Part shown: positions 1-5,048 of the stretch, one piece after another
Numbering within the stretch: the first letter of the stretch is position 1
Layout of the letters: the number at the start of each line of letters is the position of its first letter
From: Candidatus Sumerlaeota bacterium
Lineage (GTDB): Bacteria > CG03 > SLGR01
Reading direction: 5' to 3'
DNA length: 5,702 nt
Assembly: GCA_007136585.1 (NCBI GenBank)
Contig: SLGR01000147.1
Span: forward strand, 1 to 5,702
The notes under the pieces: generated by a model
What the model saw: only the letters and a program-made list of their open reading frames with translations
What the model was told of the DNA's origin: nothing
Databases searched by the model: none
Position numbers and translations under genes: made by a program

Positions 1-534
1 GTAGGCGGAGACCTTGATGTAACCGGCGCTCTTACGGCGGATACAGTTACTTCGGCGCTGACTTCTACCGGTGAACTTGATATGGATTCAAACAAGATAG
101 TAAACCTTGTCGATCCTGATGGTCCCCAGGACGCGGCCACAAAGGCATACGTGGACGGTCTGACCGGCGGCGGGGAGAACGCGGCGGTCCTTAGCGGAAC
201 GCAGACCTTCACGGGGCTCAATACCTTCACGAAACTCGTGACTGTATCAAGCGACACGGTGATCACAGGTGATTTGGGCGTAGAGACAGACCTTGATGTT
301 GCAGGAGACGCGACGGTGAGCGGAAGCCTTGATGTATCCGGCGCGCTTACGGCGGACAATGCTACTGTATCTGTAATGACGGCTACGCAAGAGGCTTCGG
401 TCGGAGGTAACCTTGATGTGGACGAAGACACGACAGTAGGCGGAACTCTGGATGTAGCCGGAGCCGTAGATTTTGCTGGCAACCTCGATGTAGGCGGAGA
501 CTTGGATGTAACCGGCGCGCTTACGGCGGACACA
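1..534 (+). repeat. Dispersed LDV/SGALTAD coding repeats
   Basis: Imperfect copies of a unit reading roughly V-G-G-x-L-D-V-x-G-A-L-T-A-D lie at 1-45, 316-360 and 490-534, with a shorter relative beginning at 436. Copies 1-45 and 490-534 match at 41 of 45 bases by hand alignment. A 21-base stretch is identical between 338-358 and 512-532. Short LDV-containing segments occur between them (about 289-300, 403-420 and 481-489). The unit is a coding repeat of the fibre shaft, not an independent element. The near-identity of distant copies suggests duplication or recombination within the gene, and the array probably continues upstream of the window. Confidence 0.85.
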
Positions 535-2034
535 ATAGATACCGGATGGGGGGTGACGGATGTTTATATGATGGACCAGGACGTAACCAGTACTTCGGAA
601 GTTATGTTTGCTACGGTGACGGTTAATGAGTGGGCTTGGATCAATGAAATAGGGGTCAATGAACTTGAAGCGTTGACAGCTAACGCTACGAACCTCAGTG
701 CGGATAACGGTGAGATTGATTATCTTACTGTTACTGACGGACTTGATTCTTCTGATGCTCCGATAACCGTCAGTACCGTAACAGCAAATGATGTTACCGG
801 ACTGTACCTGCTTGACGCGTTTGGCGGCGGAGTACATATAACGGAAAATAAATTTTCCGGAGGAAACCTTTCAGTAAATACTGTTACAGGAAATTATGCC
901 TTTGCGTGGGGAGATGATAATACCGCAAGCGGTAATCATTCTGTAGTAAGCGGTGGTGAAGAAAATGAGGCCAGTGGGATGCTTTCAACAGTTGGCGGTG
1001 GATTTCAAAATGTTGCTGCGGGATCAGGATATACTACGGTGGGAGGCGGAATTAATAATACCGCCAGTTCTTATGATTCAACGGTAAGCGGTGGTAAGGG
1101 CAATACCGCGAGCGGCGAAGGCTCTGCCATAGGCGGCGGTCAGGACAATACCGCAACTGCAGATGCTAAATGGGCAGCAATCGGCGGCGGTCATAGCAAC
1201 GAGGCCACTGCTAATTACGCAACAGTGGCCGGAGGTAGAGAAAATGTCGCTTCCGAACAAGATGCTACTGTATCTGGCGGTTTTGGGAACGAGGCGACTG
1301 CTATGTTATCTACAGTAGGCGGTGGAAATTACAATGTAGCTTCCGGTCAGGCTGCCGTGGTACCGGGTGGAACAGAAAATACGGCTTCAGGGAATTATTC
1401 CGCGGTTCTGGGCGGTTGGCAGAATGTTGCTTCAGGAGCACATTCATTTGCCGCCGGGATGAAATCCAGCGCTACGGCTGTAGGTGCCTGGGCGATAAGC
1501 GATTCGGTGGTTGATGAGAATCTAAATGATATAATGAATAGTTTCCGGGCGCGTTTTCAAGGAGGCTTTGACCTTATAGGCGGTGCTCCGGGAGAAGACG
1601 GTTCCATCGTCAGGATATCCACAGGCAATTCCGTTTCTGGGATAACCACTATGTTTGAGTTTATGGGTAACGGTGACGCGGTTGCCGAAGGAACCTGGAC
1701 ATCAGGCGGCGCTGACTTCTCCGAGTGGTTCAGAAAAGATATAGGCGAAGTTCTGGAGCCCGGGGATGTTATAGGGCTTAACCTTGATACCGGGATGGTC
1801 AGAAGGTATCAGGAGGGGGATGTCCTTGTCGGGGTGTATTCCACTAAGCCCGGATTTGTGGGAAATAATATTCCCGATGAGCTCAAGTCTGACTACGCCC
1901 TGGTGGCTCTTGTGGGACAGGTTCCTTACAAGGCCGATCAGGTCAGCGTAAGCGGCCGGAGGGTTGAGACGAGTGACGGCAAGAGAATAGGGTATCTCCT
2001 GGAGGACGGCAACGTTTTTCTGAGGGTGGAATAA
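1..2034 (+). CDS. Phage-tail-fibre/YadA-head-like surface fibre protein with Peptidase_G2-like C-terminus (5' end outside window)
   Basis: The frame is open from base 1 and ends at TAA 2032-2034, giving 677 visible residues. The ATG at 82 is internal: it lacks a ribosome-binding site and the residues before it already belong to the repeat. Order, numbered from base 1: an LDV repeat (1-14); a tail-fibre motif ending DAATKAYVD (28-54); LDV/SGALTAD repeats (about 87-178); a MDQDVTSTSEVMFA motif typical of repetitive fibres (191-204); about 13 YadA-head-like repeats of roughly 15 residues (297-493); an NSFRARFQGGFDL segment (513-525); and a GADFSEWF motif with EPGDVIGL and GVYSTKP segments (570-650), resembling the Peptidase_G2 self-cleaving domain of phage appendages. 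No Cys is present. It is probably a trimeric beta-rich extracellular fibre. There is no YadA membrane anchor and no sorting domain at its C-terminus, so its route out is unknown. A prophage tail fibre is the alternative, but no phage genes flank it. Confidence 0.85.
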   Translation, partial: VGGDLDVTGALTADTVTSALTSTGELDMDSNKIVNLVDPDGPQDAATKAYVDGLTGGGENAAVLSGTQTFTGLNTFTKLVTVSSDTVITGDLGVETDLDVAGDATVSGSLDVSGALTADNATVSVMTATQEASVGGNLDVDEDTTVGGTLDVAGAVDFAGNLDVGGDLDVTGALTADTIDTGWGVTDVYMMDQDVTSTSEVMFATVTVNEWAWINEIGVNELEALTANATNLSADNGEIDYLTVTDGLDSSDAPITVSTVTANDVTGLYLLDAFGGGVHITENKFSGGNLSVNTVTGNYAFAWGDDNTASGNHSVVSGGEENEASGMLSTVGGGFQNVAAGSGYTTVGGGINNTASSYDSTVSGGKGNTASGEGSAIGGGQDNTATADAKWAAIGGGHSNEATANYATVAGGRENVASEQDATVSGGFGNEATAMLSTVGGGNYNVASGQAAVVPGGTENTASGNYSAVLGGWQNVASGAHSFAAGMKSSATAVGAWAISDSVVDENLNDIMNSFRARFQGGFDLIGGAPGEDGSIVRISTGNSVSGITTMFEFMGNGDAVAEGTWTSGGADFSEWFRKDIGEVLEPGDVIGLNLDTGMVRRYQEGDVLVGVYSTKPGFVGNNIPDELKSDYALVALVGQVPYKADQVSVSGRRVETSDGKRIGYLLEDGNVFLRVE
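889..1479 (+). repeat. YadA-head-like (Hep_Hag-type) tandem repeat array
   Basis: About 13 degenerate units of mostly 15 residues (about 45 nt) follow the pattern [N/E]-x-A-[S/T]-G-x-x-[S/A]-x-V-x-G-G-x-x-N. Clear examples contain NTASGNHSVVSGG, NEASGMLSTVGGG and NTASGNYSAVLGG. Two units differ: one is lengthened near NTATADAK and the next (WAAIGGG) is shortened. Pattern and spacing match the left-handed parallel beta-roll of trimeric autotransporter heads as known from YadA. The last unit (SFAAGMKSSATAVGAWAIS) leads into the C-terminal segment. DNA identity between units is modest, so this is an old, selected protein repeat. Confidence 0.88.
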
Positions 2035-2050
2035 GCGCGGATACTCAGCA

Positions 2051-2056
2051 GAGAGG
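2051..2056 (+). promoter_or_regulatory. Ribosome-binding site for the small CTD protein
   Basis: GAGAGG lies 6 bases before the ATG at 2063, a normal Shine-Dalgarno position, and supports that start. The 28-base gap after the fibre gene shows no hairpin or promoter, consistent with co-transcription. Confidence 0.7.
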
Positions 2057-2062
2057 TCAATT

Positions 2063-2632
2063 ATGAATTTATTAACATATAAGAACTCAAGGAAGCTGAG
2101 AGCGGCGCTTGCGCTTGTCTTTATCGCGTCGGCGGGGTACGCCGCTCTTATGACCGGGGTTAATTTCAGGCTCCTTACGGGGATACTTAACTCCGGGGGA
2201 GGGAGCGTCTCCTCGCAGGGATACGCTACCACAGCTGCGATAGGCGGGGGATACGGCGGCGAGGCCGCGAGCGCCTCGTACAGGTCCGGCGCGGGGTTTG
2301 CCTCGCAGTCATCAGCCCTGTCGGGGATACTGCCCGCGGTGAGCATAAGGGACGCGCACGTGTATCCCAGCCCCTTCAAACCGGGGGCGGGCGGCATATT
2401 TGACGCCGAGCACATAACGTTCAAGGACCTTACTCCTGTTGCTACTATAAGGGTCTTTAATATAAGGGGAGAGCTGGTAAGGACAATAAGAAAAGATGAT
2501 ACGTCGGTGGACTACTACAGGTGGGACGCCACAAACGACGCCGGGAACAGCCTGGCAAGCGGCGTATATATATTCTATATAACCAACCCGGAAGGGGAGA
2601 CGGCGAAGGGTAAGTTTTCTATTATCCGTTAG
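2063..2632 (+). CDS. Small secreted protein with FlgD-Ig/type IX sorting-like C-terminal domain
   Basis: The product has 189 residues. The N-terminus has basic residues (KNSRKLR) then a hydrophobic stretch ending AGYA, so signal peptidase I cleavage is likely after residue 27. Residues 44-85 are rich in Gly, Ser and Ala, with a YATTAAIGGGYGG...ASYRSGAGF pattern often seen before such C-terminal domains. Residues about 98-189 have the hallmarks of the FlgD Ig-like / type IX secretion C-terminal domain superfamily: VYPSPFKPG, then TIRVFNIRGELVRTI, WDATNDAGNSLASGVYIFYI and a final GKFSIIR. There is no room for a catalytic or binding domain between linker and CTD. The gene lies between the fibre and the PorV-like gene, suggesting an exported, surface-attached or accessory part of the same system. 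Its exact function is not recognised. The domain call is strong; sorting by a type IX-like machine is inference. Confidence 0.85.
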   Translation: MNLLTYKNSRKLRAALALVFIASAGYAALMTGVNFRLLTGILNSGGGSVSSQGYATTAAIGGGYGGEAASASYRSGAGFASQSSALSGILPAVSIRDAHVYPSPFKPGAGGIFDAEHITFKDLTPVATIRVFNIRGELVRTIRKDDTSVDYYRWDATNDAGNSLASGVYIFYITNPEGETAKGKFSIIR

Positions 2633-2637
2633 ATATG

Positions 2638-2642
2638 AGGAG
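2638..2642 (+). promoter_or_regulatory. Ribosome-binding site that decides the PorV-like start
   Basis: AGGAG lies 7 bases before the ATG at 2650. A longer reading from the ATG at 2635 would place this strong Shine-Dalgarno inside the coding sequence and has no good site of its own. The 2650 start is therefore preferred, and it also gives a cleaner signal peptide beginning MKIIKQT. Confidence 0.8.
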
Positions 2643-2649
2643 TCACAGT

Positions 2650-3786
2650 ATGAAAATCATAAAACAGACCCTTGCTGCGGCGGTTATGACGGCCTGCCTG
2701 TCGTCCCTGTCGTACGCGGGATACTTCACTTCGGACCGGGCCGGGACCACGGCCGCCCAGTTCCTGAGACTGGGTATAGGCGCAAGGCCCGTGGCTATGG
2801 GCGAGACCTTTGCGGGTATCGCGGATGATATAAACTCCGTTTACTGGAACCCCGCGGGGCTTAACAATATCAGCTCCAGGGAGGTCTCCGCTATGCACGC
2901 TGTATGGTTCGAGGATATAAGCTTCAGCTGGCTCGCCTACGCCCAGGAGCAGTTCGGGGGCACTATGGGGGTTGCCTTCAACTACCTCACGGTCGGAAAG
3001 ATGGAGAGCTACGACAACCAGAACAACCGACTGAGCGGGTATGACGCCTATGATTTCGCGGGCGTTATCTCTTACGCCAGGGAGATAAAGGGGATCCCCG
3101 CCGGGGTGAACCTGAAGGTCCTTAACTCCCGGATAGAGGATGAGACCGCGTTCGGGGCGGCCCTTGATATAGGGGCCTTTAAGGTCCTGCCGGTATCAGA
3201 AGGAAGAAATATTACCGCGGGGATTTCCGTTCAGAACATAGGCCCGGCCTACAAGTTCATCAACGAGGCCGATCCTCTTCCCCTTAATATAAAGATGGGG
3301 GCTGCCACGACACACTTCAGCGACGCGCTTCTTGTGGGGCTGGATATAAATTTCCCGGTGGATAACACCCCAAATATGAGCGTGGGGGCCGAGTACGCCA
3401 TAGACCTTGGGAAGTTCCTTATATTCCCCAGGGCCGGGTTCAAGACGGCCACCATAGACGACCTGGACGCCCTCTCGGGGCTCTCGGCCGGGATAGGGTT
3501 TGAGTATAACAGCATAGCCTTTGATTACGCCTGGGTCCCCTACTGGGAGTTTGGCGATACTCACAGGGTCTCTGCGGGGTACAAGTTCGGGAGGGCCAGT
3601 TACCCGCGGGAACCGGGAGCGGTGAGGCTTACCCGGGACGAGAGGCTCTACCAGAGGGGCCTGAGGCAGCTTGAGAGGGAAAACTACCTTGAGGCCGTGG
3701 AGCTTTTTACCGAGGCCCTTATAATAAACCCGGAGCATCCGGGCGCTCTTGAGTCCCTGGACGAAGCGCATAAAGGGCTTCAGTAG
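2650..3786 (+). CDS. PorV/PorQ-family (UPF0164-like) outer-membrane protein with C-terminal TPR tail
   Basis: From ATG 2650 the product has 378 residues. A signal peptide ends at about SYA (residue 23). The mature start contains GTTAAQFLRLGIGARPVAMGE followed by FAGIADDINSVYWNPAGL (31-71), the signature of the PorV/PorQ family, whose members form FadL-like outer-membrane barrels. In type IX secretion PorV is the receptor that carries cargo to the attachment complex. Alternating beta-strand segments run to about residue 314, where HRVSAGYKFG looks like a closing strand. Residues 333-378 then form one clear TPR-like unit (LYQRGLRQLERENYLEAVELFTEALIINPEHPGAL), an unusual addition that should face the periplasm if both barrel ends do. 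It starts 17 bases after the CTD-protein stop and is followed after 14 bases by a TPR gene. Family assignment is firm; a role in cargo display here is inferred from context. A lipid or hydrophobic-compound channel is the alternative. Confidence 0.88.
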   Translation: MKIIKQTLAAAVMTACLSSLSYAGYFTSDRAGTTAAQFLRLGIGARPVAMGETFAGIADDINSVYWNPAGLNNISSREVSAMHAVWFEDISFSWLAYAQEQFGGTMGVAFNYLTVGKMESYDNQNNRLSGYDAYDFAGVISYAREIKGIPAGVNLKVLNSRIEDETAFGAALDIGAFKVLPVSEGRNITAGISVQNIGPAYKFINEADPLPLNIKMGAATTHFSDALLVGLDINFPVDNTPNMSVGAEYAIDLGKFLIFPRAGFKTATIDDLDALSGLSAGIGFEYNSIAFDYAWVPYWEFGDTHRVSAGYKFGRASYPREPGAVRLTRDERLYQRGLRQLERENYLEAVELFTEALIINPEHPGALESLDEAHKGLQ

Positions 3787-3791
3787 GTCAT

Positions 3792-3795
3792 AAGG
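3792..3795 (+). promoter_or_regulatory. Weak ribosome-binding site for the TPR gene
   Basis: AAGG lies 5 bases before the ATG at 3801. It is the only plausible site in the 14-base gap, and its weakness fits translation linked to the preceding gene. Confidence 0.5.
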
Positions 3796-3800
3796 CTGTA

Positions 3801-5048
3801 ATGAATTTCTTTCCGCGCCTCCCGCGCGTTGCCCCCGTTTTTATTTCATCGCTTCTTCTTACAGTATCCGTTCCGTCTTTCGCGGGCCCTGAGGCCGCCA
3901 ACAGGCTCTTCCGGGAAGGGCTTGAAGAGTACCTTGCCGGGAACTATGTGCCGGCTATGGGGATTTTTATTGAAGCCCTGAAGGAAGACGAGACCCACCA
4001 CGGGGCCAAGGCCTTCATACTTAAGACAAGGGAGCAGCTGGCCAGGGAACAGGACGAAGCCCGGAGGGCCCTCAGGGAACAGGAGAGGCTTCAGAGGAGG
4101 CTGGAAGAGGAACGCGAGCGCGAAGAAGCCCTGAAGCGGCAGGAGCTTGAAGACGATACCCCCGAGGCCCGGGCAAGGAGCAGGGCCCACTCTCATTACC
4201 TGAAAGGCCTTGAGTATGTCTCAGAGGATAACCTTGCGCTTGCCCTGAGGGAATGGGACCTCTCGCTTTTATGGGATCCTGATAATACCGAGCTTGCGGC
4301 CCTTGCGGAAAGGACAAGAAGAGAACTTGATATCGTCTCACGGGCAAACCTTCTGGAGAAACGGATAGGGGAGGCCTATACCTACTACCAGGAGGGAAAC
4401 CTTGCAGATTCCCTGGAGGCCTGGAGAGAGGTGCAGCGTATAGACCCCGCCAGCCCCACCGCGGCGGAGTATATAAAAGAAATCCGGGAGAGGCTTTCCC
4501 AGCGCGAGAGGGACGCCTATGAGGCAAGGCGCAGTGAGCAGCAGAAAAGAGAAATCTCTTCGCTTATGGAAAAGGGAAGAGACGCGATGAGCGCGAAAAG
4601 GTACTCCGAGGCCGCCGGAAAATTCGGCAGGGCTCTTAAGCTTGACCCGGGGCACGAAGAGGCCGGGAAGATGAAAGCCGAAGCGGAGAAAGCCCTGGCC
4701 CTTAAGGTCGGGGAGCTGCTGGAGGAGGGCTCCGCCCTTCTTGAGAAGGAGGATTACGCGGGGGCGTCGCGTAAGTTCCACGCTGCACTGCAGGCGGACC
4801 CGGGTAACAGGCAGGCCGCAGGGTACATAGAGAAACTAAGGAGAATAACCTCCGCCCGGGAAAGGCGGAGAAGACAGCAGCAGGTCAGGCGTATGTATTT
4901 TGACGCGGCGGGGCTTTATATGAACGGGGAGTATGATGAGTGCCGCGCTGTTGTGGATGAGATATTTGAGCTTGATCCGGGTAATGAGAACGCCTATAAG
5001 CTTCTTGACCGCCTGGAATGGGTCCGGAGGTTAACCTCGGGAAATTAA
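3801..5048 (+). CDS. Exported TPR and coiled-coil protein (six TPR-like units)
   Basis: The product has 415 residues. A signal peptide (basic N-region, hydrophobic VFISSLLLTVSV, cleavage after PSFA, about residue 28) sends it to the periplasm. TPR-like helical pairs sit at about 31-64, 129-162, 188-217, 255-288, 306-339 and 366-399. Several end in the usual D-P before the next helix, for example RALKLDPGH and AALQADPGN. A highly charged Arg/Glu stretch (about 75-128) separates units 1 and 2 and is likely a long coiled coil; shorter charged linkers lie at 229-254 and 350-364. No lipobox, catalytic motif or second membrane segment is seen. The gene starts 14 bases after the PorV-like gene, whose tail is also TPR-like, so a periplasmic scaffold contacting that barrel is a reasonable inference. 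No specific ortholog is recognised, and TPR proteins cannot be assigned more closely from sequence alone. Confidence 0.87.
   Translation: MNFFPRLPRVAPVFISSLLLTVSVPSFAGPEAANRLFREGLEEYLAGNYVPAMGIFIEALKEDETHHGAKAFILKTREQLAREQDEARRALREQERLQRRLEEEREREEALKRQELEDDTPEARARSRAHSHYLKGLEYVSEDNLALALREWDLSLLWDPDNTELAALAERTRRELDIVSRANLLEKRIGEAYTYYQEGNLADSLEAWREVQRIDPASPTAAEYIKEIRERLSQRERDAYEARRSEQQKREISSLMEKGRDAMSAKRYSEAAGKFGRALKLDPGHEEAGKMKAEAEKALALKVGELLEEGSALLEKEDYAGASRKFHAALQADPGNRQAAGYIEKLRRITSARERRRRQQQVRRMYFDAAGLYMNGEYDECRAVVDEIFELDPGNENAYKLLDRLEWVRRLTSGN

Follow-up and report, generated by a model that had tools for sequence, protein, structure and literature searches.

A putative operon for surface display through a divergent type IX secretion system, in which a minimal sorting-domain protein stands beside its own PorV-family barrel

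How might a bacterial fibre with a phage-type C-terminal end be held on the cell surface, and what would the three genes behind it contribute? We addressed this question in a stretch of 5,702 nucleotides (nt), hereafter the window, which is an entire contig (C211; GenBank SLGR01000147.1) of a metagenome-assembled genome (MAG) of a Candidatus Sumerlaeota bacterium (G000; 1.88 Mb, 257 contigs, 88% complete). Four open reading frames (ORFs) on one strand encode a fibre, a small protein with a C-terminal sorting domain (CTD), an outer-membrane barrel of the PorV/PorQ family, and a periplasmic tetratricopeptide repeat (TPR) protein. A sequence-only reading of the window had described four same-strand genes separated by 14–28 nt; their positions are as claimed, with gaps of 28 nt, 17 nt (taking the barrel start at 2650), and 14 nt, and profile searches upheld their identities. 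We consider it moderately probable that these genes form an operon for surface display by a divergent type IX secretion system (T9SS), in which a private shuttle for type A cargo is retained as a wall-anchored pedestal. The analysis was computational throughout (profile searches, gene order, and structure models), and it set the window's own genome beside 15 other sampled genomes of the phylum, including those of the same order (G001–G007), the MAGs being incomplete (66–97%). The features of the window are as follows.

1..2034, + strand: fibre protein, 3' part; 677 amino acids (aa) in the window, 5' part cut by the contig end
901..1467, + strand: UspA1/YadA-like beta-roll head repeats (GGxxNxAxG) of the fibre, residues 301–489; phmmer match to PDB 3pr7, E 6.2e-23
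1714..2031, + strand: C-terminal phi29 gp12-like intramolecular-chaperone/autocleavage region (Peptidase_G2-like) of the fibre; PDB 3gqh, E 2.2e-5
2063..2632, + strand: minimal CTD protein, 189 aa; signal peptide, adaptor-like stretch of ~70 residues, C-terminal sorting domain
2348..2629, + strand: type A-like T9SS CTD; matches to TIGR04183, PF13860, and the PorZ C-terminus
2635..3786, + strand: PorV/PorQ-family outer-membrane barrel, 383 aa; NF033709; proposed private shuttle and pedestal
3643..3738, + strand: TPR unit fused to the barrel C-terminus, predicted periplasmic; PF07719, E 3.7e-4
3801..5048, + strand: periplasmic TPR protein, 415 aa; Sec signal peptide; TPR profile match, E 6e-18
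5091 to the contig end (5702): fifth ORF, PARCEL/DUF285 surface-repeat protein, running off the contig; DUF285, E 1e-10

The proposed cargo and shuttle are encoded by the second and third genes. The sorting domain passed the curated cut-off of TIGR04183 (23.4 bits against 23), with a match that stops two residues short of the C-terminus, as well as that of FlgD_ig (PF13860; 27.7 bits against 27), and it matched the C-terminus of PorZ (E 2.4e-10). The barrel scored 171 bits with the PorV/PorQ family model NF033709 (cut-off 90), covering positions 1–326 of the 326 in the profile; its likelier start is the ATG at 2650, preceded by AGGAG, which would give a protein of 378 aa. In a low-confidence structure model (pLDDT 51), the barrel had 14 strands followed by a TPR tail; among PDB entries it most closely matched 8gl6 chain F, from a T9SS complex with a bound RemA CTD (E 1.1e-7). 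For the CTD protein, an AlphaFold model built with two sequences gave seven short strands at low confidence (pLDDT 46) and was excluded from the fold search.

The adjacency of these two genes proved to be one instance of a pairing that extends across the phylum. PorV-family genes number about 30 per genome, with ~29 in the window's own. Across five genomes of the phylum, 58 of the 103 CTDs recognized by Pfam FlgD_ig had a same-strand PorV gene within 500 nt downstream, where ~0.35 would be expected at random; the same count in a genome with strong SprA and PorU was 1 of 33. With custom-built profiles, 90 of 128 PorV genes lay directly behind a gene ending in a CTD, compared with 20 of 680 other genes (Fisher test, 4e-68). 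The reverse order, with PorV 5' of the CTD gene, was found in two cases per genome at most, the junction between the two genes is often a 4-nt overlap, and the CTDs lie at the extreme C-terminus, with 10–22 residues beyond the profile end. Within the window's own genome, 13 of 29 PorV genes were paired by Pfam FlgD_ig alone, which is an underestimate, and 23 of 29–30 by the custom CTD profile; because that profile was seeded from own-genome CTDs that are mostly PorV-adjacent, the own-genome counts are partly circular, whereas the Pfam-only count and the counts from other genomes are free of this circularity.

The paired genes also share a history. The divergences of CTDs and barrels were correlated (Mantel r 0.48; 0 of 1,000 permutations, also when permuted within genomes), and the cross-genome best matches of the two agreed in 41 of 114 cases against 6.7 expected; since simple linkage yields co-inheritance too, these figures show pairs kept together and not binding. 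Gene order and co-inheritance are those of a cognate substrate-shuttle pair such as SprB/SprF, with the shuttle immediately 3' of its substrate. Two CTD-then-PorV pairs were also observed on a contig from another phylum (C118 of G033), and the pairing may reach beyond this phylum.

A homologue of the translocon that such a pair would need is encoded elsewhere in the genome. The sequence-only reading had seen no core T9SS genes in the window and had proposed searching the same genome for SprA/Sov, PorU, and PorK–N; the first of these was found. A SprA/Sov homologue of 1,726 aa on contig C230 matched TIGR04189 in colinear pieces (E 1e-53), narrowly under the equivalog cut-off (182 against 200 bits), as well as the solved SprA structure (PDB 6h3i, E 4e-18). 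Its gene lies in a conserved neighbourhood, read as containing LolC/D-type, lysS, comF, and LptF/G-type genes, and homologues are present in 14 of the 15 other phylum genomes. PorU did not follow: its catalytic domain, Peptidase_C25 (PF01364), had no match in G000 or in G001–G007, and a full canonical T9SS is therefore not established in the window's order. The GldM/PorM profile gave zero matches in 41 genomes and the controls, including genomes with strong SprA and PorU, and so is not usable as an absence. Within the phylum, Peptidase_C25 did occur in another family (f5), in five of its seven genomes, and was missing from the other sampled families, while SprA was found nearly everywhere; a sortase lost or gained within the phylum is possible.

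The fibre is likely to be the item displayed. Its head exceeds the cut-off of PF18792. Its C-terminus fell just under the cut-off of PF11962 (E 2.8e-5; 24.1 bits against 25), matched preneck appendage proteins of the phi29 group by tblastn, and aligns from the D of DFSEWF, where the crystallized phi29 fragment starts at DFAEYF. The missing 5' part was located on contig C172, whose last 121 bases are exactly those that open the window, in frame; because a second contig pair of the assembly shows an overlap of the same length, 121 is the apparent assembly word length. Joined across the two contigs, the fibre would comprise ~1,198 aa, to which C172 adds a signal peptide and an N-terminal domain. 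This domain weakly matches NCBIfam Bdello_MAT_N (NF053851; E 2.5e-4) at 20.9 bits, below the cut-off of 60 bits. No YadA membrane anchor was found for the window fibre.

Comparable loci occur in related genomes. G004, from another family, has the identical order of fibre, 186-aa CTD protein, barrel, and TPR gene. One locus of G003 encodes a fibre, a 185-aa CTD protein, and a barrel with a TPR-like tail, and a second encodes a fibre, a 395-aa CTD protein, and a barrel. G001 carries a tandem, the first unit consisting of a 186-aa CTD protein, a barrel, and a fibre with a Peptidase_S74 end, and the second of a 189-aa CTD protein, a barrel with an OmpA tail, and again a fibre with an S74 end. Fibre, CTD, and PorV genes are linked in G000, G004, G003 (two loci), and G001 (two units), that is, in four genomes from three families. 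As these arrangements are found again in further families within the order, we regard the four-gene set as not due to chance. The minimal CTD protein is alignable with the 185–189 aa homologues adjoining fibre genes in G001 (two), G003, and G004, and all five complete proteins of this size class adjoin a fibre gene. The fibre gene of G004 (L103, ~1850–2120) shifts frame about 65 residues before its expected end and continues in another frame to the same terminus; this copy is therefore either broken or misread through a sequencing error.

Fibre genes adjoined a CTD-PorV pair in 6 of 6 cases, compared with 96 of 622 other genes (p 1.6e-5); because the regions were picked for their PorV genes, this figure describes the position of these fibres and says nothing about fibres in other places, and two of the six, those of G001, are copies in tandem. 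The conserved order proposed in the sequence-only reading accordingly held in G004 and, as fibre-CTD-PorV linkage, in G003 and G001, but the genes do not make up one fixed module, as G006, G008, and G012 show. Its further suggestion of a module dedicated to fibre display agrees with the conserved linkage and needs to be widened in another respect: the locus is one case of a phylum-wide pairing that serves many cargoes.

The last gene of the set appears to belong to the barrel. Orthologues of the TPR protein lie directly 3' of the barrel gene in G004 and G006, and barrel and TPR protein form a single fused ORF in G008 and G012. In G006, the same pair follows an Fn3 protein that carries its own CTD. 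Because the G006 pair has another cargo and the two are fused in G008 and G012, we conclude that the TPR gene travels with the barrel, not with the fibre. The TPR tail of the barrel itself was modelled with helices at pLDDT 77–92 and is kept in G004 and G006. Other PorV paralogues end in OmpA C-terminal domains, in three genomes (E 1.6e-22, 1.7e-23, and 6.3e-24), or in LysM, TPR (several), or CsgG/LpoB-like domains. OmpA and LysM domains bind peptidoglycan. These C-terminal tails are predicted to be periplasmic.

Several further barrel loci were recorded. A 594-aa PorV barrel on contig C91 of the window's genome (L055, 4532–6313) has an FlgD_ig domain between the barrel and an OmpA tail, which we rejected as a CTD as it is internal. 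Contig C72 of G008 (L146, 1825–4203) encodes a single protein of 792 aa with PorV barrel, FlgO/CsgG-like, and OmpA domains. On contigs C186 and C73 of the window's genome (L115, L123), TPR-tailed barrels are followed by TPR-HEAT proteins, and at one of these loci a response regulator lies between the CTD gene and the barrel. Signalling genes also stand directly behind the barrel-TPR pair in G004 and G006 (L047, L048), namely a response regulator/adenylate cyclase, a HAMP histidine kinase, and a response regulator, and the fused locus of G012 likewise has a cyclase-like gene behind it.

These observations are consistent with the following mechanism. Judging from their signal peptides, the fibre subunit, the minimal CTD protein, and the TPR protein would be exported by Sec to the periplasm. 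The CTD protein would then cross the SprA-like pore encoded elsewhere in the genome, as homology suggests, and the PorV-family barrel would take it up as a private shuttle, a role to which homology, the phylum-wide pairing, and co-inheritance point. Because no C25/PorU sortase was detected in the order, the CTD would probably escape cleavage and remain bound, with the barrel serving as a pedestal. The TPR tail of the barrel and the separate TPR protein may hold the barrel from the periplasmic side, as the OmpA, LysM, and TPR tails of its paralogues may do. The fibre would fold as a trimer with the help of its C-terminal chaperone, and its N-terminal domain may attach to the N-terminal part of the minimal CTD protein, as the conserved linkage would suggest. 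More tentatively, and with less than even confidence, we propose a sortase-free branch of type IX secretion. Almost all type A cargo proteins would each have a PorV barrel of their own, serving as shuttle and then as a permanent pedestal anchored to the wall, and the minimal CTD protein would be the surface receptor by which trimeric MAT-like fibres are held at their conserved N-terminal domain.

Several points weigh against this mechanism, besides the selection of regions behind the fibre count and the ambiguity of co-inheritance. The fibre itself lacks a CTD, and its passage across the outer membrane is left unexplained, the simplest guess being that it would ride with the CTD protein. Only TPRs and no peptidoglycan-binding domain were detected in the TPR protein, so that wall anchoring is an argument by analogy, and the barrel-TPR pair of G006 has no adjoining fibre. 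Below the family level, the barrel scored 69.6 bits with the PorV equivalog NF033710 (cut-off 250) and 114 bits with the PorQ equivalog (cut-off 220). The structure models are of low confidence (pLDDT 46–51), and the absence of PorU refers to one peptidase family in incomplete MAGs, where another sortase could exist. The lack of a fibre CTD and the other cargo in G006 would also suit another arrangement, in which the barrel does act as private shuttle for the minimal CTD protein, but the fibre is only co-transcribed with the two, has a route and an anchor of its own, and forms no complex with the CTD protein. The different position of the fibre in G001 points the same way, as do the MAT fibres of Bdellovibrio, which reach the surface and for which neither a CTD protein nor a barrel has so far been implicated (PMC10769870). 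This arrangement leaves the fibre's place beside CTD-PorV pairs at all six loci, across three families and in two arrangements, and the invariable presence of a fibre beside the five complete minimal CTD proteins to be accounted for, and we think it rather unlikely, if worth keeping in view.

Two other explanations dispense with type IX display altogether. UPF0164/FadL-type barrels can be transporters, and the window barrel also matches PF03687 and FadL-type proteins; FlgD_ig likewise occurs in flagellar FlgD, and the Pfam search gave matches in the Escherichia coli and Bacillus subtilis controls. The PorV-like genes might then be small-molecule transporters and the FlgD_ig domains structural immunoglobulin-like folds, not export signals. 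We consider this improbable, given a domain that sits at the extreme C-terminus and passes a type A sorting-domain cut-off, the presence of SprA, a barrel gene immediately behind that of the CTD protein for 90 of the 128 PorV genes, with the reverse order rare, and a best fold match to a chain of a T9SS complex. The resemblance of the fibre C-terminus to phi29 gp12 and to PHROG tail proteins could instead suggest a domesticated remnant of a phage tail or contractile injection system, the fibre being that of a prophage or tailocin and the barrel an accidental neighbour. The fibre nevertheless has a signal peptide, a UspA1-type adhesin head, and a conserved linkage to CTD-PorV pairs, and neither C172 nor the fibre neighbourhoods of G001, G003, and G004 contained any other recognized phage gene; we rejected the prophage reading for lack of such genes and give this origin hardly any credence.

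The fifth ORF, of the PARCEL/DUF285 type, was not found at the corresponding place in G004 or G006, and DNA related to it is present on contigs C124 and C217 of the window's genome. A terminator scan revealed no convincing terminator at the end of the operon. The nearest named relatives are two MAGs labelled "Elusimicrobia bacterium" (isolates CSSed10), which contain orthologues of the TPR gene.

A survey in 2016 reported T9SS as restricted to Bacteroidetes (PMC4793230). Our literature search, with most subscription journals outside its reach, found no paper on PorV expansion, CTD-PorV pairing, or wall-anchored PorV in this group, and no description of PorV or T9SS in Elusimicrobia or of T9SS with endosialidase-type chaperones. 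If the proposed display operon is correct, private shuttles are not confined to cargo with type B signals, with type A cargo having private PorV proteins, several of which carry built-in wall anchors. It would also place SprA-based export in a phylum for which we found no published description, supply ~90 natural CTD-barrel pairs for learning recognition, and name a specific candidate for the element by which MAT-like fibres are held at the surface.

Among the closest known parallels are operons of Bacteroidota. In Flavobacterium johnsoniae, a type B substrate, a SprF-like shuttle, and a PorE-like protein are co-encoded in five operons; Fjoh_3952/3951/3950 encode the three in that order, and the substrate is secreted only with its cognate shuttle, while in Porphyromonas gingivalis PG1035, PorP, and PorE form a complex (PMC12618676, PMC9143113). 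The window shares with these operons the order of cargo, FadL-type 14-strand barrel, and periplasmic TPR-type partner, with one barrel per cargo and a proposed static anchoring to the wall, and it shares with PG1035 a small CTD protein. It differs in having a type A CTD and a PorV/PorQ-family barrel, where theirs are type B and PorP/SprF, in belonging to another phylum, and in having paralogues with a wall-binding domain fused to the barrel. Whereas the PorE-type anchor combines TPRs with an OmpA-like peptidoglycan-binding domain, the window's TPR protein has no OmpA domain. Our best reading, by analogy, is that the window operon may be the type A counterpart of the Flavobacterium type B substrate/SprF/PorE operons.

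With the canonical type A pathway, the window and its genome share a SprA homologue, type A CTDs, and a PorV-family barrel. Type A cargo of Bacteroidota shares one PorV, and only type B cargo has been described with private shuttles (PMC12618676); in contrast, the genomes studied here have ~30 PorV-family genes each, most of them behind a CTD gene, and no C25 sortase was found in the order. The fibre resembles the MAT fibres of Bdellovibrio (PMC10769870) in its signal peptide, conserved N-terminal domain, mosaic trimeric build, and phage-type C-terminal chaperone, and the G001 relatives share the S74 chaperone with them. Unlike these, the window fibre has a gp12/Peptidase_G2-like end, a UspA1 head, and a CTD-PorV linkage, with an N-terminal match that stays below the family cut-off. 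According to the MAT paper, what the MAT N-terminal domain binds at the surface has yet to be identified (PMC10769870), and the minimal CTD protein is a candidate for an analogous role here. Beta-roll head repeats link the fibre to the UspA1/YadA trimeric autotransporter adhesins, from which it differs in its proposed anchoring through a separate CTD protein and barrel. Its C-terminal intramolecular chaperone/autocleavage region resembles that of the phi29 gp12 preneck appendage, but the gene is bacterial, encodes a signal peptide, and stands among no recognized phage genes.

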